Shown: in pieces, positions 3-35,951 of the stretch | How the letters are laid out: the number at the start of each line of letters is the position of its first letter | Position numbering within the stretch: the first letter of the stretch is position 1 | Source: a virus | IMG/VR virus record: IMGVR_UViG_3300044712_000573 | Location: 1 to 36,021 of that record | Direction: 5' to 3' (one strand) | DNA: 36,021 nucleotides | Translations under genes and position numbers: made by a program | The notes under the pieces: generated by a model | Seen by the model: only the letters and a program-made list of their open reading frames with translations | Told to the model about the DNA's origin: nothing | The model's database searches: none

Positions 3-137
3 TATGACCCGAAGGATGGGGCCTTTGAGAAGTGGGTGCCAAGATCGGTCATTGAGGACGGTGACCAGCTTGAGGAAGGCTTGAACCAAGACATTGAGGT
101 GGCTGGGTGGTTTGCCACCAAAGAGGGCATTGAGTGA
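3..137 (+). CDS. C-terminal part of a small phage protein (gene spans the window edge)
   Basis: This is an open frame from the left edge to a TGA at 135-137, giving 44 residues with no start of its own. Joined through the 7-base terminal overlap to the fragment starting at 35948, it completes a 67-residue soluble protein. The pattern WVPRS followed later by VAGWFATKEGI resembles small phage proteins of unknown function that carry a W-[IVL]-P-[KR]-S element and end in a W-[FL]-A-x-K-E-G motif. I know no function for them. It lies between the RecB-like nuclease and the zinc-ribbon-like gene of the early operon. The family resemblance is from memory; the frame continuity is read directly. Confidence 0.75.
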   Translation, partial: YDPKDGAFEKWVPRSVIEDGDQLEEGLNQDIEVAGWFATKEGIE

Positions 138-172
138 ATATCGGTGAGCCAAGGTTGGCTTAAACCATGTTG

Positions 173-2935: not shown

Positions 2936-3118
2936 ATGAAAGAGGCTACACGGTATCAGTACCAAAAAAGAATAGCTGAGCTTGAGGCACGGGTGAGAGA
3001 GTTGGAAAGGTGGCAAAGCTTTGGCCGTGAAGTTTATGACTGGCTTGTGGGCTGCATTGGTGGCACTCCCAACATTGCCTTTGGTCTAAAGCTATTCCGG
3101 CAAAAGGGGTTACTGTGA
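2936..3118 (+). CDS. Short coiled-coil protein
   Basis: The product is 60 residues. The N-terminal half, with RIAELEARVRELERW, has leucine/isoleucine heptad spacing and should form a short coiled coil. The C-terminal half is more hydrophobic. A GGGG tract precedes the ATG, and the stop overlaps the next gene's GTG start (GTGA). It could be an oligomerising partner of a neighbouring DNA enzyme; nothing in the sequence says which. Confidence 0.6.
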   Translation: MKEATRYQYQKRIAELEARVRELERWQSFGREVYDWLVGCIGGTPNIAFGLKLFRQKGLL

Positions 3119-3612
3119 GAGAGGCTACTTTCACTACTGAGCTACGCAACGCACTGGATAAGTGGGGGGCTTGGTCTTACAAAATTCCAGACTTCCCATA
3201 CAGACAAGCCTTGGTTACTCAATTCGCACCAGAGAAACCCTGTGACATCATCGCACTCAAAAAGGGCACCTTCTATGGCATTGAGACCAAGATGGCAAGG
3301 AAATGGGAAGCTTTTGGCATAAAGGACCTCACACGCTCTCAGCTGAGAAACCTGTACCTCATGCACCTGCAAGGGGGGCAAGCCTTGGTAGCCCTCTGTG
3401 TGCGTATTCCACAAGAGCGCATCAGGTACCGCTTTTTTAAATTCATTGACCTGCACACCAGACAGAGGTGGCTTGCAAAAGAGTTGAGAGAGCTAACGTG
3501 GGACCAGTATGAGGGCGGTGTGATTGTGCTGGAAAACAGTAAGACGTTGAAGGAAACTCAGGGAGTAAGCATAGAGCCTACTCCCTGTAAAATGTCACCT
3601 CACTTAGCGTAG
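3115..3612 (+). CDS. PD-(D/E)XK endonuclease, RecU/Holliday-junction-resolvase-like
   Basis: The product is 165 residues with a GTG start. A conserved acid near the N-terminus (FTTEL, E9) is followed by KPCDII (D44), then GIETK (E57 and K59) and a downstream Q-R-N helix. This is the D...ExK arrangement of the RecU-type fold, in which a strand ending in ExK is followed by an SF/AF loop, a Q..L helix and GGxA(L/F)VAL, all of which can be seen here. RecU-like phage enzymes cut branched DNA to clear recombination intermediates before packaging. The last 13 bases overlap the opposing regulator gene. A VRR-NUC-type assignment is the main alternative. Confidence 0.75.
   Translation: MREATFTTELRNALDKWGAWSYKIPDFPYRQALVTQFAPEKPCDIIALKKGTFYGIETKMARKWEAFGIKDLTRSQLRNLYLMHLQGGQALVALCVRIPQERIRYRFFKFIDLHTRQRWLAKELRELTWDQYEGGVIVLENSKTLKETQGVSIEPTPCKMSPHLA
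3559..3587. other. Perfect inverted repeat at the 3' end of the RecU-like gene
   Basis: CAGGGAGTA (3559-3567) and TACTCCCTG (3579-3587) form a perfect 9-bp stem with an 11-base loop, inside the coding end and just before the convergent stop codons. There is no T-tract. It could separate the two convergent transcripts. Its arms are one base away from the repeated octamer GGGGAGTA. Confidence 0.5.
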
Positions 3613-4149: not shown

Positions 4150-4428
4150 ATGACATCAAGCCAATTTCAAGAGTGCATCAGACACTTATACTGCATGGGA
4201 CTTGAGGACTTCAGACGCACATGGGGCAGAAGTCCAGAGGGCATGGGTGACTACTATTGGGACAAATTTCTTGGTTTCAAGAAAAACCCAGCTGAATTTA
4301 TCTGCTACTTGGACGGTGGTGGGATGCGTGATCTATTCAGGGAATTTCAGAGGCACTTGAGCAAGGCCATAGACCCCAATGACGGTCTCAAGGCCAACCT
4401 TGATAAGCTCACGGGGGTGCGGTCATGA
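4150..4428 (+). CDS. Hypothetical early protein upstream of the Topo VI-like gene
   Basis: The product is 92 residues. The start at 4150 is supported by GGAG eight bases upstream (4138-4141); an earlier in-frame ATG at 4093 lies inside the preceding gene. It is aromatic-rich (several F, Y and W between residues 20 and 55) and soluble, with no clear motif. Its stop overlaps the next start as ATGA, so its product is probably made with the Topo VI-like protein and may work with it. That link is contextual only. Confidence 0.6.
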   Translation: MTSSQFQECIRHLYCMGLEDFRRTWGRSPEGMGDYYWDKFLGFKKNPAEFICYLDGGGMRDLFREFQRHLSKAIDPNDGLKANLDKLTGVRS

Positions 4429-5327
4429 CACTCATCAAGTACATAGACCGTCGTTTTGCACCCAGTGCTTTGGAAACCATCAAGGTGGCCAATGGCATCA
4501 TTGCTGAGTATCAAAAGCAGGGCTTTGACCTGACCCTGAGGCAGCTGTACTACCAGTTTGTTGCCCGTGGTATTCTTGCCAACAAGCTCATTGAGTACAA
4601 GAAACTGGGGAGTATCATAAATGATGCCCGGCTTGCTGGACTCATCAGCTGGGATGCCATTGTTGACCGCACTCGAAACCTGCAGGGTAACAACCACTGG
4701 AATAGTCCACAGGACATTGTTGCAGCCTGTGTAAATCAGTACAAGGTGGACAAGTGGGCCAACCAACCCAACCACGTTGAGGTGTGGATTGAGAAAGACG
4801 CACTCATTGGTGTCATTGAGAAGGTCTGCAGAGAGCTTGATGTGTCCTACTTCTCTTGCAGGGGCTACACCTCTCAGTCAGAGATGTGGTCAGCTGGGAT
4901 GCGGTTGAAGCGTCACAAGAGCAATGGACAACAACCACATGTCATCCACCTTGGTGACCATGACCCAAGTGGTAAGGACATGACCCGTGACATTGATGAC
5001 CGGCTTGCCCTATTCATTGGTGGTGCTGGGTGCAAGGTCAACCGCATTGCTCTCAACATGGACCAAGTTGAGAAGTACAACCCGCCACCCAACCCAGCCA
5101 AGACTACTGACAAGAGGGCCAAGCGATACATTGAGGAGTATGGCCATGACTCTTGGGAGTTGGATGCCCTTGACCCACCCGTGATTGAAAAACTCATCCG
5201 TAAAGAGGTGCTGAAACTGAGAGATGAGGACCTGTGGGGTGAGATGGTGGAAAAAGAGGACAGGCACAAGCGGGTGTTGCAGGACTCAATGGACAACATG
5301 CCGGATGAGGATGAGGACGATGAGTAA
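4425..5327 (+). CDS. Topoisomerase VI subunit A / Spo11-like protein (Mini-A-like)
   Basis: The product is 300 residues. The N-terminal part has LTLRQLYYQFVARG (36-49), matching the helix of the Topo VI-A/Spo11 winged-helix domain that holds the catalytic tyrosine (Y42 or Y43). A Toprim domain follows: VWIEKDAL supplies the metal-binding glutamate (E123), and HLGDHDPSGKD (175-185) supplies the DxD pair (D178, D180; DPDPYG in cellular enzymes). The C-terminus is an acidic tail (DNMPDEDEDDE). No GHKL ATPase subunit B is encoded anywhere in the window. Short B-less A subunits from mobile elements have been described as Mini-A. Plausible roles are DNA cleavage or nicking in replication or recombination; the activity here is untested. 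Confidence 0.85.
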   Translation: MTLIKYIDRRFAPSALETIKVANGIIAEYQKQGFDLTLRQLYYQFVARGILANKLIEYKKLGSIINDARLAGLISWDAIVDRTRNLQGNNHWNSPQDIVAACVNQYKVDKWANQPNHVEVWIEKDALIGVIEKVCRELDVSYFSCRGYTSQSEMWSAGMRLKRHKSNGQQPHVIHLGDHDPSGKDMTRDIDDRLALFIGGAGCKVNRIALNMDQVEKYNPPPNPAKTTDKRAKRYIEEYGHDSWELDALDPPVIEKLIRKEVLKLRDEDLWGEMVEKEDRHKRVLQDSMDNMPDEDEDDE

Positions 5328-9428: not shown

Positions 9429-11863
9429 ACTAGAATACCCCCAAATTTCACCAAAGAGGGTATGTCATTGGTGGTGTCCTGTCTGTCCAGCATGGCATCA
9501 ATCACCATTTTTTGACCAGACTGTGAGGTGATTTCAGACACCATAGTGATTTCACCACCAATCGTGGTGATTTTTAGGTTGTCGATGTTGGCGTAACCAG
9601 TGGACCCCATTGTTGTGCCAAAAGCAAACCTGTTACCGGCAAGACTGACACTGGTATAAGAAACCGTTTGAGACCACGCCGCTGGTTCAGAGTCAATACC
9701 GCGCCACACCTTAATCCTTGAAAAAGTTGGCCAGTGTTGAATGCGAAATTTATAAACACCCGGTGCCGCTTGCGTATTGAATGGCAAATTTGCTGCAGCC
9801 GCAAGGTATGATGCACCGTTAAATAGTCGGACAGTGCATGGACTTGCTCCTAGTCCACACTCCCAAGTCAGACCGCAGTTAGCAGATTGGTTGAAAATAT
9901 CCCCTATTGAGGTACCACCAGTGTGACCGTAGTTGATGTTGAATACGGAAATCGCGTTATTTATGGTGTTGGTCATCTCAAACGAAATTTCAAGAGGAAA
10001 TTTCGCTGTAGTCCACGCCTCAACTGCACGGTAGACTGATTGGTACGTCCCAGCACCACCTGATCTTAATTGCATTGCACCAGATTGAATGTCTACACCA
10101 CCACCGTTTGAGTAGCCTGTAGCCCATCCGTTATAATTCGCCGGAGTTGTGCTGTCAGCTGCAGTGAAGGTGTCCGAAAAATAAGTATACTTTGCCAAGA
10201 GTAAAAAGTCCGTGATTGCCGCTGTAGTCAGTGACTCACTTGCCGTGAGACTGCCTACAAAGTATTTCAAGACTACTGACAACCGCACAATGGACCAGTT
10301 GGATGTGTCACCACCAGTGCTATTGGAGTCCGGGGAGTGTGTGATTGTGGTGCTTGGTGCACCATAGCTTGAGTCTTGGGAAAGAGTGAGTACCTTAAAG
10401 TTAGACCCCAAGACTGAGTTGTAAAAACTAGAATACTCAGGGCCGTTAGAGCCACGCGGGTCTGACTCATACTTAAAGAGTACAATCTTGTCACCGTTTT
10501 TGAAACGTCCAGAGTAGTCCCCAGCAATGGTGAGACTGGTGCTTGAGGCAAAAGAGGTTACTGGAAAAATATCTGTTTTCATGGTGGCCATGAGTTTCAG
10601 AGTTTTACCTGCCATGTTTTTTGCAAGTAGCTTACGTTTTATAAAATGTTGCTGCTTTGCATGTACACCAGACCCACTCTCAAAAAGTCCCTCAGTATTT
10701 ACTATTCCACCAAAAGGTTTCACCGATGCAGCCGCTCTGGTGTAGTTATTGGAAAGGGCACTGGCCAGGGTATACTCTCCAGATGTAGCTGTCTCAGAGG
10801 CAATAATCATAATCTCTTGGTTACTATTGTCCCAGATGGGGAGTGCTCTACCACCCTGTAGGGAGTTAACCAGTGGCCAGCGGTCCACAATGATAAGGTC
10901 ATCCCATGATGCATTGAGGGTCTGTGATGCCCCCGTGGTCAGTCCAAGATAGACCTTGGTTATATTTCCATAACTCCAAGTACCAGTTGTGGCATCAGGT
11001 GTTGCAGTGGGGTCTACCGTAAGAAAATTCCAACCCGCAACAAGACCGGCCACCGGGAAATAATATGTGGCATCGTTTCCAACTGATGTCTCAAGCTTTA
11101 TGGTGAGTCTTGTGAGGTTGGTAACCGTGTCAAGGTACACCCTGCATCTAAATAGCTTGTCAATCAGACTGAATGCGAGGGCCTTTGATATATTCCCAGA
11201 GCCGTTAAGGGTTGTTACAGTGTGCTTGTTGGAATTGGTGCCCTCAAGCTTATTGGTACCATCAGAGGCTACTGACCCCACCGATGCAGTCCAGCCAGTG
11301 GTAGCATCCATTGAGTCAACTGCAGTCTTGTTAACATCCAGATAAATTGTGGTTGTGTCTGAAACTGCAGTGTAGTCTTTGGCAAGATTTACTGTCATGG
11401 TTAAGGCATTGGGGTCCATGAAAGCCTCAGCCAAGATGTTGTCATTAGGCAACTCAGCGCGTAGGGATTGCTTGAGATTGCTGAGCACCATGGCCACAAG
11501 CTCAATTCCAGCACCACCACCTGAGGCTGCAGCTGAGCCGGTGGCCTTGAGCCATCTGCCAGACCCAGATGCGGGGACCAATACTAGGTCATCATCACCA
11601 GCCGCAACGGATGAGGAAGAGAATTTATAAAATGCACTATTGGACTGACAGAAAGCAACTTGTCCATCAACTCGGTTGGCTGATGCTACTGCTTTTACTG
11701 CAGTGATGTCAGCCAAACTACCCAACACCTGAGCTTTGGGGGTGTAGGTGTTGTCAGCGTAAAGCTTTGGTACCAAGTCTGCATCAGCACTGGGGGTGGC
11801 ACCCGCTGGGACCTGACTGGTTTCAACACTCACATCAAAATTATATTCTCTAATTCCACCCAT
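9425..11863 (-). CDS. Large tail fibre / receptor-binding protein
   Basis: The product is 812 residues. GAGGAG seven bases before the ATG at 11863 sets the start; a TTG at 11878 would bury that site. The N-terminal 120 residues carry SADADLVPKLYADNTYTPKA and a glycine/alanine hinge (AAASGGGAG), typical of a virion-attachment domain. The remainder is serine/threonine/asparagine-rich beta structure. Between about residues 570 and 760 there is a lectin-like sandwich (FSDTFTAADSTTPANYNGW near its start), suggesting glycan binding. It follows the tail hub gene, the usual place for the host-recognition protein. No chaperone or endosialidase-type self-cleavage motif is evident. Confidence 0.75.
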   Translation of the reverse strand: MGGIREYNFDVSVETSQVPAGATPSADADLVPKLYADNTYTPKAQVLGSLADITAVKAVASANRVDGQVAFCQSNSAFYKFSSSSVAAGDDDLVLVPASGSGRWLKATGSAAASGGGAGIELVAMVLSNLKQSLRAELPNDNILAEAFMDPNALTMTVNLAKDYTAVSDTTTIYLDVNKTAVDSMDATTGWTASVGSVASDGTNKLEGTNSNKHTVTTLNGSGNISKALAFSLIDKLFRCRVYLDTVTNLTRLTIKLETSVGNDATYYFPVAGLVAGWNFLTVDPTATPDATTGTWSYGNITKVYLGLTTGASQTLNASWDDLIIVDRWPLVNSLQGGRALPIWDNSNQEIMIIASETATSGEYTLASALSNNYTRAAASVKPFGGIVNTEGLFESGSGVHAKQQHFIKRKLLAKNMAGKTLKLMATMKTDIFPVTSFASSTSLTIAGDYSGRFKNGDKIVLFKYESDPRGSNGPEYSSFYNSVLGSNFKVLTLSQDSSYGAPSTTITHSPDSNSTGGDTSNWSIVRLSVVLKYFVGSLTASESLTTAAITDFLLLAKYTYFSDTFTAADSTTPANYNGWATGYSNGGGVDIQSGAMQLRSGGAGTYQSVYRAVEAWTTAKFPLEISFEMTNTINNAISVFNINYGHTGGTSIGDIFNQSANCGLTWECGLGASPCTVRLFNGASYLAAAANLPFNTQAAPGVYKFRIQHWPTFSRIKVWRGIDSEPAAWSQTVSYTSVSLAGNRFAFGTTMGSTGYANIDNLKITTIGGEITMVSEITSQSGQKMVIDAMLDRQDTTNDIPSLVKFGGILV

Positions 11864-29712: not shown

Positions 29713-31212
29713 ATGGTATCTGCAGTGGTGTCTTACCTACTCCGCGATAGCGGGGTAGACTTCAACTATTCAAGCAACGCAAAAATTGTGATTGGCCGGT
29801 TTAAGCAGGATAAAAAGACTTTCCCGCACTGGCTCAATACCCACATGGCCAAAAACTTTGACCACATTCCAGCAAGCTTGCTGGACTTAAAGAAGTTGCC
29901 AAGTGGGGAGTATAAGCAGGTGTGCGCTTCCATCTTTGATGCCTTGGTCACTGAGATAGTGCCACAGGCTGAGCCAACTGAAATACCCAACGGTGTGGCC
30001 ATTGCCGATGCAGCCCACATGCACAAGCTCTACCCCGCACAGTACCTGAATGACCACAACGCTGTGACCTTTAGAATGTACAACGTGGAAACGGGTGCCT
30101 TGTCTGACTACTCCTACCAGTATTGGAAAATGCGGGTGGATAAGAAAACCCATGATGAGAGGGTGAGCAGGGCCATTGCTGCAGTCTTTGAGTATGACCC
30201 CTATGACCCAGCACCACTAAAAGAGGTGGTGATTGACCGTGCGCCAGCCTCACGCTTCAACCTGTACAAAAAGCCAAGCTGGATGGACCTTGAATACTCT
30301 GGCCAGCTGCCAGAGCTTGCCAAAAAGTTTTTCTCTCACATGTTTCCAGACCCTAAGTGCAGGTCCTACATCTATACTTGGATGCACCGGATGCTCACCA
30401 CGCGGTCTGAGATTTATCTCTACCTACCAGCACCAAAGGACACGGGCAAAACCACCTTTGCATACCTGTGTGGTGCCTTGGTTGGTCATGACAACTTTGA
30501 GTTGGCCAAGAGTGACTTTGCTGAAAACCACTTCAATGCTTTTGTTGCCAACCGTAGGCTCATCTTACTGGATGAGTATAATTGCTGGTCCAACAATGAG
30601 AAAGACACCCTCAAGCGCATCATCAATGACCGCATCCAGATTGAGGCAAAGGGACAAGACCAAAAGACCGTAACCAACTACTCCTCATTTATCATCTGCA
30701 ACAACAACAATGAGGGCATATTTATTGAGCCAGATGACAGACGATTCTCCATCCCAGAGGTGACACGGGAAAAAATCTCTGACCACTTCACGGCTGAGGA
30801 GTTGGCTGAGTTGAATGCAGAGATTGAAAGTGAGTGCAGCCAATTTATTGCTGACATCGGTCACTGGATACTGCAAAACTTTGAGGGCAAGTACAGCAAG
30901 CGTGAGACCCCATGGCATAAAGAGCGGTTTGAGGAAATTGTTTTCTCAAGTGCCAGAGAGGGCATGAAGTACATCATTGACCAGATTGTGGCAAAGAAGG
31001 CTCAAAAATATACCTATGCAAAGCTCAGGGCTGAGTATCGAAGTCTTGTTGGCCGCAACGTGCACTTTCCACCCCACTTTAAGGTTAGGGAGTATATCAA
31101 CGGTCTAAAGATGGACGGTAGACCCATCGCAACGTGTAGCTGGGATGGCGTGACACTCACCATCATCCCTGAGCCACGGTATTGCCCAGATAAAAAAGAT
31201 GATGAGTTTTAA
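29713..31212 (+). CDS. SF3 replicative helicase (D5-like / DUF5906 type)
   Basis: The product is 499 residues with a GGGGG tract nine bases before the ATG. The helicase core shows a P-loop PAPKDTGKTT (239-248), Walker B with LILLDEYN (283-290), sensor SFIICNNN (325-332) and an arginine-finger region DDRRFS (341-346), in the order of superfamily 3 / D5-like phage helicases. The N-terminal 230 residues have no primase motif, so priming must come from the host or another protein. Proteins of this class usually act as hexamers and can recognise the origin; this gene is next to the proposed origin region. Confidence 0.9.
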   Translation: MVSAVVSYLLRDSGVDFNYSSNAKIVIGRFKQDKKTFPHWLNTHMAKNFDHIPASLLDLKKLPSGEYKQVCASIFDALVTEIVPQAEPTEIPNGVAIADAAHMHKLYPAQYLNDHNAVTFRMYNVETGALSDYSYQYWKMRVDKKTHDERVSRAIAAVFEYDPYDPAPLKEVVIDRAPASRFNLYKKPSWMDLEYSGQLPELAKKFFSHMFPDPKCRSYIYTWMHRMLTTRSEIYLYLPAPKDTGKTTFAYLCGALVGHDNFELAKSDFAENHFNAFVANRRLILLDEYNCWSNNEKDTLKRIINDRIQIEAKGQDQKTVTNYSSFIICNNNNEGIFIEPDDRRFSIPEVTREKISDHFTAEELAELNAEIESECSQFIADIGHWILQNFEGKYSKRETPWHKERFEEIVFSSAREGMKYIIDQIVAKKAQKYTYAKLRAEYRSLVGRNVHFPPHFKVREYINGLKMDGRPIATCSWDGVTLTIIPEPRYCPDKKDDEF

Positions 31213-32059: not shown

Positions 32060-32168
32060 TATTTGTTGTTTTCTGGTTGGCACTGGCTACGGTTGGCTGC
32101 TACACGTCTACTCTCAGCGTCTGAAAAAAGAGCAGGGTGACCCAACCCAGCTGGAATTGGACCTATGA
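32049..32168 (+). CDS. 39-residue membrane-anchored peptide before the polymerase
   Basis: This short frame begins nine bases after GGGGAGTA, whose GGAG is a usable ribosome site. Residues 1-20 (MWISICCFLVGTGYGWLLHV) form one membrane span and the rest is charged (SQRLKKEQGDP). Its stop overlaps the polymerase start as ATGA. It could tether or regulate polymerase synthesis. Confidence 0.55.
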   Translation: MWISICCFLVGTGYGWLLHVYSQRLKKEQGDPTQLELDL

Positions 32169-34204
32169 TAAAAGTGTATCTGGACTTTGAGTACAATAGG
32201 ACCCAAGAGAAAACCCTAAACCTTGTGTGTCTTTCAATTCTCACCCAAGGCCATGACTGGCCCCATGACGGCAAAACTCAAAACATCTGGCTGCATGATG
32301 ACAACTCAGGCAAAAAGATTGCCACCCGGCTCATCCAAGACTTGAGGGACAAGGATGCAGTATTCGTTTCCTTTGCGGCTACGGCTGAGGGTAGAGCCGT
32401 TGCAAGCCTTGGCATCAACCCCATTAAAATGAAGTGGATTGACTTGCACCTTGAGTACAAGATGCTGACCAATCACTGCAACAAGATTGCCTATGGCAGA
32501 CAACTCATCAGGGGTAAAGAGACCTTCACCAAGCCCCCCAAGCCAAAGTGGAATAGGACAGAGGATGACCAAGAGGAAATCAACGCATCCAAGGCTGAGA
32601 CTAATTTAGCTGCAGCGTGTTTCAAGCTCCTCAAGGTCAAGATTGATACTGACCATAAAAAAGAGATGCGTGACCTCATCATCAGTGACCCAGAGCATTT
32701 CAGTGATGAGCAGATGGAAGCAATCATGGAATACTGTGCTGGTGACGTTGAGCACTTGCCAGCACTTCTGAAAAAGGTTGTGGCTCTGTACCGTGAAATG
32801 TACCAGCCTGATGACTTGAAAAAGGTACTCCCCGAGATGCTACTCAGGGGTGAGTATGCAGCACGCACGGCTGTGATGGAAAGACTTGGTTACCCAGTCA
32901 ACGTGAAGGCAGTGAAAACCTTTGTAGCCAAGGTGCCAGACATCATGCGTGAGATGTGTGAGGACATCAACTCTCAGTTTCAAAAGCGTAAGCCATTCAG
33001 GTGGAATAATAAAGCACAGCGGTACTCCATGGACCTTGGCACAATCCGCGAGTGGATTAATTTGACACAAGACGTGCGTAGGTGGCAAAAAACTGACACC
33101 GGGATGCTCTCAGTTTCCTCTGAGGCTTTTGAGGACAGATTTCACTACAGACATGACTACCCCCGTGGCAACTTTGGTGCACAGCTACTCAGATACTTTA
33201 AATTCAGAAAGTCACTCAACGGGTTTTTGCCAAAGTCACCCGATGCAAAAAATAAAGAGACCTTCCTTGACTACGTTGGCTCTGATGGGTTTTGCAGACC
33301 ATACATGAATATCTATGGTGCACAGTCCGGTAGGTCTCAGCCGAAGGCCACAAGCTTCATTCCACTCAAGGCAGCGTGGATGCGCTCTCTCATTCAGCCC
33401 CCCAAGGGTTACTTCATGGCTGCACTGGACTACTCCTCAGAGGAGTTTTTGTTAAGCAGTCTTGTGAGCCAAGACATCAACATGGTCAACGCTTACAAGT
33501 CAGGTGACCCCTACTTGTACTTTGCAATCCAAGCCGGTGCAGCACCAGAGGGTGCCACCAAAAAGACTCACGGAAAAATCAGAGAGCCTTTCAAGTCCAC
33601 CACACTGGGCTTGAGCTACGGGATGCAAGAAAAATCATTGGCTGAAAAACTCACCCAAGACACGGGTAAAGAGTACACCGCTGAGGATGCGCGTGCACTC
33701 ATTGACCAGTTTTTTCAGGTTTATGGCAGGTACAATGAGTGGCTTGGTGAAAACCTGCAAGCCTACCAAGAAAAAGGCTACATCAAGCTGCCATGTGGTT
33801 GGACCATGTGGGGTGATAATGACAACACGCGGTCAATCAACAACGTAGTCATTCAGGGCCTTGGCTCATCGGTGATGAGGAAGGCTGTGGCCCTTAGTCA
33901 AGACAGGGGAGTAGCCATCACCTTCACGCTCCATGACGCACTGTACATGATTGGCAAGTGCGGTCAGGATGAGCACAAGATTGATGTTATGTGGGGGGCC
34001 ATGTCTGAGGCTTTCAGTTTTTATTTCAAAGGTAGAGCCAAGGCTCACGCTGAGAGCATCAGGATTGATGGCAAGCTCTGGGGTCCCACGATAAAGGAAG
34101 GGGAGTACGTCACCCCCCAAGGAAAAAAACTCAAGGCTCAAAAAATTCACGTTGACGAGAGAGCACTGACCGAGTACCAACAATTCAATAAATATTTCAT
34201 TTAG
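32165..34204 (+). CDS. Family A DNA polymerase with 3'-5' exonuclease
   Basis: The product is 679 residues. The exonuclease domain shows YLDFEYN (D7, E9) and YCAGDVEHL (Y190, D194), with an altered middle motif (VFVSFAATAEGRA). The polymerase domain has LDYSSEE (motif A; D422 is the catalytic Asp), REPFKSTTLGLSYG (motif B/O-helix: R473, K477, Y485) and TLHDALYM (motif C; D591). The position matching E. coli Pol I Phe762 is leucine (L481). The glutamate that normally follows the motif C aspartate is alanine. It is the replicative polymerase of the phage, with helicase and SSB-like genes on either side. Confidence 0.95.
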   Translation: MIKVYLDFEYNRTQEKTLNLVCLSILTQGHDWPHDGKTQNIWLHDDNSGKKIATRLIQDLRDKDAVFVSFAATAEGRAVASLGINPIKMKWIDLHLEYKMLTNHCNKIAYGRQLIRGKETFTKPPKPKWNRTEDDQEEINASKAETNLAAACFKLLKVKIDTDHKKEMRDLIISDPEHFSDEQMEAIMEYCAGDVEHLPALLKKVVALYREMYQPDDLKKVLPEMLLRGEYAARTAVMERLGYPVNVKAVKTFVAKVPDIMREMCEDINSQFQKRKPFRWNNKAQRYSMDLGTIREWINLTQDVRRWQKTDTGMLSVSSEAFEDRFHYRHDYPRGNFGAQLLRYFKFRKSLNGFLPKSPDAKNKETFLDYVGSDGFCRPYMNIYGAQSGRSQPKATSFIPLKAAWMRSLIQPPKGYFMAALDYSSEEFLLSSLVSQDINMVNAYKSGDPYLYFAIQAGAAPEGATKKTHGKIREPFKSTTLGLSYGMQEKSLAEKLTQDTGKEYTAEDARALIDQFFQVYGRYNEWLGENLQAYQEKGYIKLPCGWTMWGDNDNTRSINNVVIQGLGSSVMRKAVALSQDRGVAITFTLHDALYMIGKCGQDEHKIDVMWGAMSEAFSFYFKGRAKAHAESIRIDGKLWGPTIKEGEYVTPQGKKLKAQKIHVDERALTEYQQFNKYFI

Positions 34205-34276: not shown

Positions 34277-34888
34277 ATGGCAAAAGTAGTTACAAAAAAA
34301 CCAGCAGCATCCGCTGCAAAGAAAGCAGCCGCACCAGTCACCAAGAAACCAGCACCAAAGGCTGCAGCACCTGTAGCCAAGCAAGCAACAAAACCAGTGG
34401 CCAAGAAAGCACTGAGCAGCACCCCCAAGGGTTTCCGCAAAGTGGAAGTTGTCAAAAAATATTTCCGCTACAAGGAATGCTCACCGGGTGATGTGCTTGT
34501 GAAAGACGGTGTGTACATCGGTGACACACCCAACCAGTTTGGCCGGGACAACCATGATTTCAGAGAGAGTGATGGACAGGTTGTGAGCCTCAACGCGGCT
34601 GGGCAGCTTGACTACATCCTGCAAAACAACGTCAAGCAAGGTGACTCAGTAAAGATTGTCTATGCTGGCACCAACAAGCTCACCAGTGGGGCCTATAAAA
34701 ACAAAGACGCGCATTCTTTTGAGGTTTTTGTCAAAGGTGCTGAGGTTGAGGAAGCGGCTACCGATGAGCTTGAGGAAGAGACCACAGAGACCGATGAGGA
34801 AACTGAGACCTCAACCGATGAGCTTGAGGAAGAGACCACAGAGGAAAGCTCTGAGGGTGAAGTTGACCTTGAGGACCTTGAGGGTTGA
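34277..34888 (+). CDS. ssDNA-binding-like protein with histone-like N-terminus and acidic tail
   Basis: The product is 203 residues in three parts. Residues 1-48 are lysine/alanine/proline-rich (KKAAAPVTKKPAPKAAAPVA), like histone H1 or AlgP tails. Residues 50-155 are a folded domain with GFRKVEVVKKYFRYKECSPG at its start and KQGDSVKIVYAG near its end, compatible with an OB-type ssDNA-binding fold. Residues 156-203 are almost all E, D, T and S, like the acidic tails by which SSB and T7 gp2.5 recruit partners. A 30-base sequence (34760-34789) is repeated exactly at 34814-34843 within the tail. It lies next to the polymerase and RecB-like nuclease. Confidence 0.7.
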   Translation: MAKVVTKKPAASAAKKAAAPVTKKPAPKAAAPVAKQATKPVAKKALSSTPKGFRKVEVVKKYFRYKECSPGDVLVKDGVYIGDTPNQFGRDNHDFRESDGQVVSLNAAGQLDYILQNNVKQGDSVKIVYAGTNKLTSGAYKNKDAHSFEVFVKGAEVEEAATDELEEETTETDEETETSTDELEEETTEESSEGEVDLEDLEG

Positions 34889-35066
34889 TTTAATTTTGTC
34901 CTAAACCTGACCTCTCAGTCTACCTGTTAAAACACCATGAGAGAGGTCACCCTATTGGTCAAGACTGTGCATCATTATGAGTGATGTGAGCTTGACCACT
35001 GGGTGGGTGGGTCACTTAAATTGGCCCACCCACCCAAAACCAAGGGCTTTCAAAGAAAGGTCTCTC
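34889..35066 (+). ncRNA. Candidate structured RNA: three consecutive inverted repeats
   Basis: There is no gene here. Three perfect inverted repeats follow one another: TGACCTCTC (34908-34916)/GAGAGGTCA (34941-34949); TGGTCAAG (34956-34963)/CTTGACCA (34991-34998), which encloses a further CATCA/TGATG pair; and TGGGTGGGTGGG (35000-35011)/CCCACCCACCCA (35025-35036). None has a T-tract. The last ends 30 bases before the nuclease ATG at 35067. Such a run of exact helices suggests a folded leader or small RNA; no known class is recognised. Confidence 0.5.
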
Positions 35067-35951
35067 ATGTCTACTGAAATACGCAAAGGCACCAAGGTGG
35101 GTGACACACGGCTGTCATACTCCTCATCTGACCTACTTCAAAATTGCACTGAAAAATATTGTCACCGCAAAGTGTGGATGAGTGAGCCAGACACGGATGT
35201 TGACCGGGATGAGGGTGCACTCAACATTGGCAAGGCTTTCCACATGGTGGTGGAAAAATGTAAGCACGATAAGCAGCCAACCTTGGCTCTGGTCAAAGAG
35301 GCTTGCAAGGTGCACAGCTGTGTTGACTCTCAGGCTTTGGTGCACGCCATGACCATGAAAAACTACAAGCTGCACAAGCGCACGGGACTTACCTGCCTTG
35401 CAACTGAGTTTGAAATCAGTAACCCAATATTCATTGGCTACGTTGACGCTGTACTGGGTGACAAGCTTGGCTGGTGGGTTACGGACTTGAAAACGGCAAG
35501 CAATCTCAGTGACACCAAGGTGGCAAGACTCCACAAGGATGTGCAGCTAAATCTCTATGCAAGCTTTGCTGAGATGATTGCCAAGATGTTCAAGCTGGAC
35601 CCCGCTAAATTCCGGGGTGCACGCTACAGGGTCACAACCAAGTCACTCATCAAGCCATTGAAGGATGAGGCATATGAGTCCTACGTCAAAAGGCTCTACA
35701 GTGCCATTGAGAGCATTGATGTGATTGTACCGCGTGAAATCATGGCACCAGAGAAAGCCTTTGCTCTGCACAAGAGGCTGCACGCTCTCAGCATGGCCTT
35801 GAGAGAGGGCAAGATCAAGCCACGGCAAAACTACAGCCACTGTGACTCTTATTTCACACCGTGTGAGTTTTGGTCCAAGTGCCATGGTGACAACTTCACT
35901 GTGCTCAAAGAGAAACTTGTCAGGATTGATGCAGACAGGGGCAAGGTATGA
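35067..35951 (+). CDS. RecB/Cas4-like PD-(D/E)XK exonuclease with Fe-S cysteines
   Basis: The product is 294 residues. AAAGG seven bases upstream sets the start; an in-frame ATG at 34977 lies inside the structured leader. Motifs are SYSSSDLLQNC near the N-terminus, GKAFH (H59), YVDAV (D126), TDLKTAS (D140 and K142) and QLNLY (Q160, Y164). Cysteines C27/C32 plus C259, C266 and C272 are placed like the four iron-sulfur ligands of Cas4/AddB nucleases. Such phage enzymes process DNA ends for recombination. No cas1 or CRISPR array is present, so this is a recombination enzyme, not a CRISPR component. Confidence 0.88.
   Translation: MSTEIRKGTKVGDTRLSYSSSDLLQNCTEKYCHRKVWMSEPDTDVDRDEGALNIGKAFHMVVEKCKHDKQPTLALVKEACKVHSCVDSQALVHAMTMKNYKLHKRTGLTCLATEFEISNPIFIGYVDAVLGDKLGWWVTDLKTASNLSDTKVARLHKDVQLNLYASFAEMIAKMFKLDPAKFRGARYRVTTKSLIKPLKDEAYESYVKRLYSAIESIDVIVPREIMAPEKAFALHKRLHALSMALREGKIKPRQNYSHCDSYFTPCEFWSKCHGDNFTVLKEKLVRIDADRGKV

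Follow-up and report, generated by a model that had tools for sequence, protein, structure and literature searches.

A Mini-A member of the Topo VI-A/Spo11 group in a virus record, with conserved cleavage residues and no B subunit found

For the A subunit of topoisomerase VI from M. mazei (Top6A), a cryo-EM study of 2026 identified Y106 as the catalytic residue and E202, D254 and D256 as the metal site, and described a clasp between R102 and E342 that restrains cleavage until it is released (PMC13040014). Mouse SPO11, as work of 2025 showed, cuts DNA without a partner and stays on the 5' ends; its cleavage needs tandem tyrosines, a divalent metal and dimerization, and bendable or supercoiled DNA is preferred (PMC11922746). 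Mini-A proteins are described in reviews as truncated homologues of Top6A or Topo VIII-A, found in viruses and mobile elements and of unknown function (PMC8185306, PMC8084294, PMC11302465), and as close to Topo VIII (PMC8185306, PMC8084294). The protein of Pseudomonas phage NP1 is the Mini-A example drawn in a topoisomerase review, fig. 4 (PMC7614492). In the literature that we searched there was no experimental study on any Mini-A, and the first-pass annotation of the DNA analysed here, which had called the function of these proteins largely open, was right on this point. The Mini-A family of mobile elements was reportedly published by Takahashi et al. in 2020.

The gene and its family

The window, that is the whole stretch of DNA analysed, is a virus record of 36,021 bases, perhaps incomplete, which carries a terminase. 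The terminase and the structural genes lie on the minus strand (5999-29208), and plus-strand genes of DNA metabolism are found at both ends of the window: a helicase (689-1963) and a resolvase-like gene (3115-3612) at one end, and a primase (29713-31212), a DNA polymerase (32165-34204) and an exonuclease (34977-35951) at the other. The gene under study, of 300 codons from ATG to TAA, is on the plus strand at 4425-5327, and its start overlaps the end of a 92-codon plus-strand reading frame (4150-4428) by the four bases ATGA; a GGAG ribosome-binding site precedes the start at 4150. The label of an early operon, given to this region earlier, would follow from its plus-strand position among DNA-metabolism genes; a scan for promoters and terminators gave no excess over shuffled sequences. 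The phage collection held no near DNA match to the first 25 kb of the window, which is a new phage lineage, unlike NP1. Between the polymerase and the exonuclease (34277-34888) is encoded a 203-residue protein with an acidic tail, which matches nothing in PHROG and may bind single-strand DNA.

Over its full length the window protein matches phrog_6247 ("DNA topoisomerase"; E 2.6e-117), and it is 46% identical to the Mini-A of NP1 over 290 residues (E 3e-89). Homologues were found in 73 phage records (E<=1e-5), 68 of them spanning at least 80% of the length, in at least 594 confirmed viral stretches, and in 158 bacterial and archaeal genome stretches ranging from actinobacteria to archaeal MAGs. 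The phrog_6247 match and the many homologues rule out a chance reading frame. Homology extends over the whole protein, which is virus-encoded and consists of a winged helix and a Toprim domain only, within about 300 residues; the median length of the Mini-A family is 301 residues, versus 366 for Topo VI-A. The window protein is thus a newly found member of Mini-A, a family already published in 2020. Single-sequence searches of Pfam and NCBIfam with it gave no usable match, a PADLOC search gave none, and PDB chains, searched both by sequence and by profile, returned chance-like matches only, for example to Cdc73. TP6A_N was the commonest Pfam family among the members, weakly so (14/106, best value 0.014).

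Several members of the family deserve separate mention. The gene of Salmonella phage SPN19 (L013:9992-10879) has its reading frame starting at 9992, and its annotated start, a TTG at 10121, falls directly after the YYQ codons, which is why the public protein has no catalytic tyrosine. Roseobacter phage RDJL Phi 1 (L221:7900-9000) has its Mini-A split over two frames, one with the tyrosine part and one with the Toprim part, and the annotated gene covers the latter only; the split reflects a slip in sequencing, or else the gene is broken. In two further members (L003:6001-7020 and L004:6001-7047) about 25 residues are inserted behind the position that corresponds to residue 52 of the window protein, inside the winged helix. 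Mini-A also occurs on contigs of two archaeal MAGs (L128, Methanimicrococcus, and L142, Nanoarchaeota), and Topo VI-A was not found in either assembly. Since Topo VI-A is present in 30/31 and 29/30 of the genomes searched from the groups around them, incompleteness of the two MAGs or misbinning of the contigs may explain the absence.

Catalytic residues and predicted fold

The first-pass annotation had described the region of Tyr42/43, the Toprim glutamate and the DxD pair as preserved, and the alignment of homologues bears this out. Six residues are invariant in all 106 aligned sequences: R39 (codon at 4539-4541), Y43 (4551-4553), E123 (4791-4793), D178 and D180 (4956-4964, D-H-D) and E245 (5157-5159). 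The tandem tyrosines are Y42 and Y43, with Y42 replaced by Phe in 6/106 homologues; E123 is the Toprim glutamate, and D178 and D180 form the DxD pair.

For a profile-profile comparison, archaeal Topo VI-A genes were collected, and in three of these proteins, each of 369 residues, R102, Y106, D254, D256 and E342 stand at exactly the M. mazei numbers. An unguided alignment of the two profiles pairs R39 with R102, Y42 with Y105, Y43 with Y106, E123 with E202, D178 with D254 and D180 with D256, and so marks Y43 as the predicted catalytic tyrosine and R39 as the counterpart of the clasp arginine. The score of this alignment is modest (hhalign 26.4, E 0.012, probability 3.5%) and exceeds those of 120/120 column-shuffled controls; with the probability so low, homology to Topo VI-A rests on the motif register, the fold and the published family. 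E245 is left unpaired with E342 by the profile alignment and shares with it the motif E-x-x-A-[LF]. From this motif E245 seems to be the equivalent of the clasp glutamate E342, and the clasp pair, R39/E245, seems to be kept. The tyrosine lies at a median position of 43 in Mini-A versus 98 in Topo VI-A, about 55 residues fewer preceding it.

The AF2 model of the full protein has a pLDDT of 91.7 and a pTM of 0.86, and its best Foldseek match is Top6A 9o7o (E 4.5e-3). In a comparison with the PDB by VIA-align, Topo VI-A 1d3y ranked first (Z 10.0, 140 residues aligned, rmsd 3.4), and the match takes in the Toprim domain (residues about 115-264; 4767-5216 on the plus strand). The nuclease MksG (8b7f) followed with Z 9.8 over 123 residues of the Toprim part, and designed Rossmann proteins reached Z 9.5 against that part; with Z values moderate and designed folds so close, the fold matches support the assignment but do not prove it. 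The start points of the full-model match, 115 on 194 (M. mazei), put E123 at 202 if the alignment is ungapped.

The winged-helix (5Y-CAP) domain, residues about 12-85 (4458-4679, plus strand), was also modelled separately as the first 112 residues. Its best VIA-align match was again 1d3y (Z 7.5, 69 residues aligned, 12..83 on 72..143), which places Y43, if ungapped, at chain residue 103 of 1d3y, presumably the catalytic tyrosine of M. jannaschii Topo VI-A. Foldseek, given this small domain by itself, did not place Topo VI-A at the top. A Foldseek search of viral models gave one match below 0.001, to a viral protein of 152 residues without a name, which is uninformative.

A better match to another Toprim family, such as OLD or primase, had been named at the outset as the finding that would speak against the annotation, and it was not seen: primase Toprims reached Z of about 7 over about 100 residues, versus 10.0 for Topo VI-A, and OLD was absent among the VIA-align matches listed, an absence that excludes nothing by itself. 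The filing as a B-less protein of the Topo VI-A/Spo11 type, that is a Mini-A, holds on the identity with the NP1 protein, the catalytic register and the best VIA-align match.

Neighbouring genes and the search for a B subunit

The absence of an encoded GHKL partner, claimed from the first reading, stands for the 36-kb window, perhaps an incomplete record, within the reach of three Pfam models: PF13589, PF02518 (both GHKL) and PF09239 (the Topo VI-B transducer) gave no match there. In 50 Mini-A records, which include the window and four annotated phages and are possibly incomplete, no GHKL or Topo VI-B protein rose above the cut-off, and the same search was positive in its controls, finding GHKL ATPases in 14/14 control genomes. 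In one record (G079) a GHKL-like protein that stays below the threshold is encoded two genes upstream of Mini-A (L030:1750-3210), with an N-box-like motif in its N-terminal part and a metallopeptidase-like HEFGH near the C terminus. A 21-kb record (L223) and an uncultured phage of 485 kb encode relatives of this protein. As a GHKL partner this candidate was rejected: it lies below the cut-off, and because the 21-kb record with a relative has no Mini-A, it is treated as unrelated.

The 92-residue product encoded just upstream (4150-4428) had been put forward as a possible partner, and this suggestion found no support. No relative of it was found among 2779 neighbouring ORFs, and searches gave no family match and no significant relative in phage records or viral contigs. 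The gene is an orphan, not a conserved partner, and is probably co-translated with Mini-A. At related loci the gene upstream of Mini-A usually differs from that in the window. A uniform small upstream partner was considered and rejected as well: 19 loci have an ORF of 60-120 residues close upstream, and on inspection these sequences share no family.

Across 142 diverse Mini-A loci there was no conserved neighbour, and no conserved recombination neighbour. The commonest cluster among the neighbouring ORFs is a helicase, also present in the window, which occurs at 18 loci in scattered positions, and no Pfam family dominates the genes next to Mini-A: HTH regulators, helicases, integrases, RecT, DNA methylases and the like were tallied, each matched by at most six members. 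In NP1 and PaMx25 the Mini-A gene overlaps a Sak4/RecA-like annealing gene, with a Cas4 exonuclease and a helicase nearby; this context, in one lineage, fits a role in recombination.

Proposed activity and comparison with known systems

We think it fairly probable that the window protein is a stand-alone, homodimeric, B-less DNA transesterase that makes breaks of the Spo11 type, probably for phage recombination and replication. Two copies of Mini-A would dimerize through their Toprim domains, so that Y43 in the winged helix of one copy meets the acidic site of the second copy, formed by E123, D178 and D180. The attack of Y43 on DNA would be aided by a divalent metal. The outcome would be staggered double-strand breaks, or single-strand breaks, with the protein held covalently on the 5' ends by a 5'-phosphotyrosyl link. 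A GHKL subunit would be unneeded; gating would come from dimerization on the DNA and from the ability to recognize where it is bent, crossed or supercoiled, and the R39/E245 clasp may restrain the reaction. Most likely phage DNA would be opened in this way for recombination and replication, the role being the least certain part of the proposal. We infer the chemistry strongly, and the dimer and its gating less so. As all cleavage residues are in place and no B subunit was found, a Mini-A working like lone SPO11 would be the simplest reading. A fuller version, in which the protein acts without a partner as the Spo11 of phages and its protein-capped double-strand breaks start recombination-driven replication, and in which the Top6 clasp is kept but gated by DNA shape and dimerization and not by ATP, is advanced only tentatively and is less likely than not.

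Other readings have to be weighed against this one. The same cleavage set, equal to that of Top6A, could serve a stand-alone, ATP-independent topoisomerase, a dimer of which would cut and reseal DNA and thereby relax supercoils or unlink replication products with no lasting breaks. The gene sits among replication genes, Topo VIII of M. marina relaxes DNA without ATP (PMC7614492), and SPO11 is able to reseal nicks (PMC11922746). However, type IIB enzymes depend on a GHKL B subunit to drive strand passage, and the searches did not find one; Mini-A also lacks the N-terminal extension that Topo VI-A has, as the tyrosine positions show. We regard this activity as doubtful, and with modest confidence favour the making of breaks for recombination and replication over resealing. 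The missing extension also argues against an A subunit that borrows a host GHKL protein or a non-homologous phage partner and is active only as a complex. The apparent retention of the R39/E245 pair, which is restraining in Top6 (PMC13040014), hints at a controlled enzyme, and GHKL ATPases were present in every control genome; but the neighbour genes include no conserved one, the 92-residue gene is an orphan, and a family spread over phages and genomes from such diverse hosts would require one universal partner. A borrowed partner is therefore unlikely in our judgment.

The close match of the Toprim part to MksG, the second-best in VIA-align, raises the question of a nuclease of the Wadjet/MksG-JetD kind directed against competing DNA, be it plasmids, other phages or the host chromosome. 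The 5Y-CAP domain of MksG has no tyrosine candidate (PMC10123090), whereas Y43 is present in every aligned Mini-A, so a covalent tyrosyl break is to be expected here and not hydrolysis. PADLOC gave no match either, and no MksBEF-like or SMC-like cluster was seen among the recurring neighbours, and such a nuclease is very improbable. We return, then, to the break-making homodimer as the preferred reading.

Mini-A proteins may be natural A-only type IIB enzymes, and as such a minimal unit for understanding Topo VI and Spo11. They are very common, as the counts of viral and genome stretches given above indicate, though reviews call them functionally unknown. This analysis contributes three points, namely that the cleavage residues are invariant, that neither a B partner nor a conserved controlling neighbour was found, and that the clasp pair is seemingly kept.

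Among the known systems, MksG/JetD shares the Toprim fold and provides a precedent for a stand-alone nuclease, and differs in that MksG has no winged-helix tyrosine (PMC10123090). Topo VIII is likewise a type IIB relative from mobile elements, but the window protein comes without a B part. With Spo11/SPO11 the protein has in common the catalytic layout and the tandem tyrosines, and SPO11 alone cuts DNA (PMC11922746); the window protein, in contrast, comes from a phage gene and is too distant for a direct profile match to the solved chains. Compared with Top6A, the window protein has about 55 fewer residues ahead of the tyrosine, is smaller overall and has no Top6B that could be found, but has the same winged helix and Toprim domain, the same tandem YY and the same register of R, Y, E, D and D. 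The nearest likeness is to the Mini-A of NP1: the neighbour genes differ, with no Sak4 or ThyX beside the window gene, whereas the two proteins agree in having no B subunit, in being phage-encoded, and in their length, layout and catalytic motifs.
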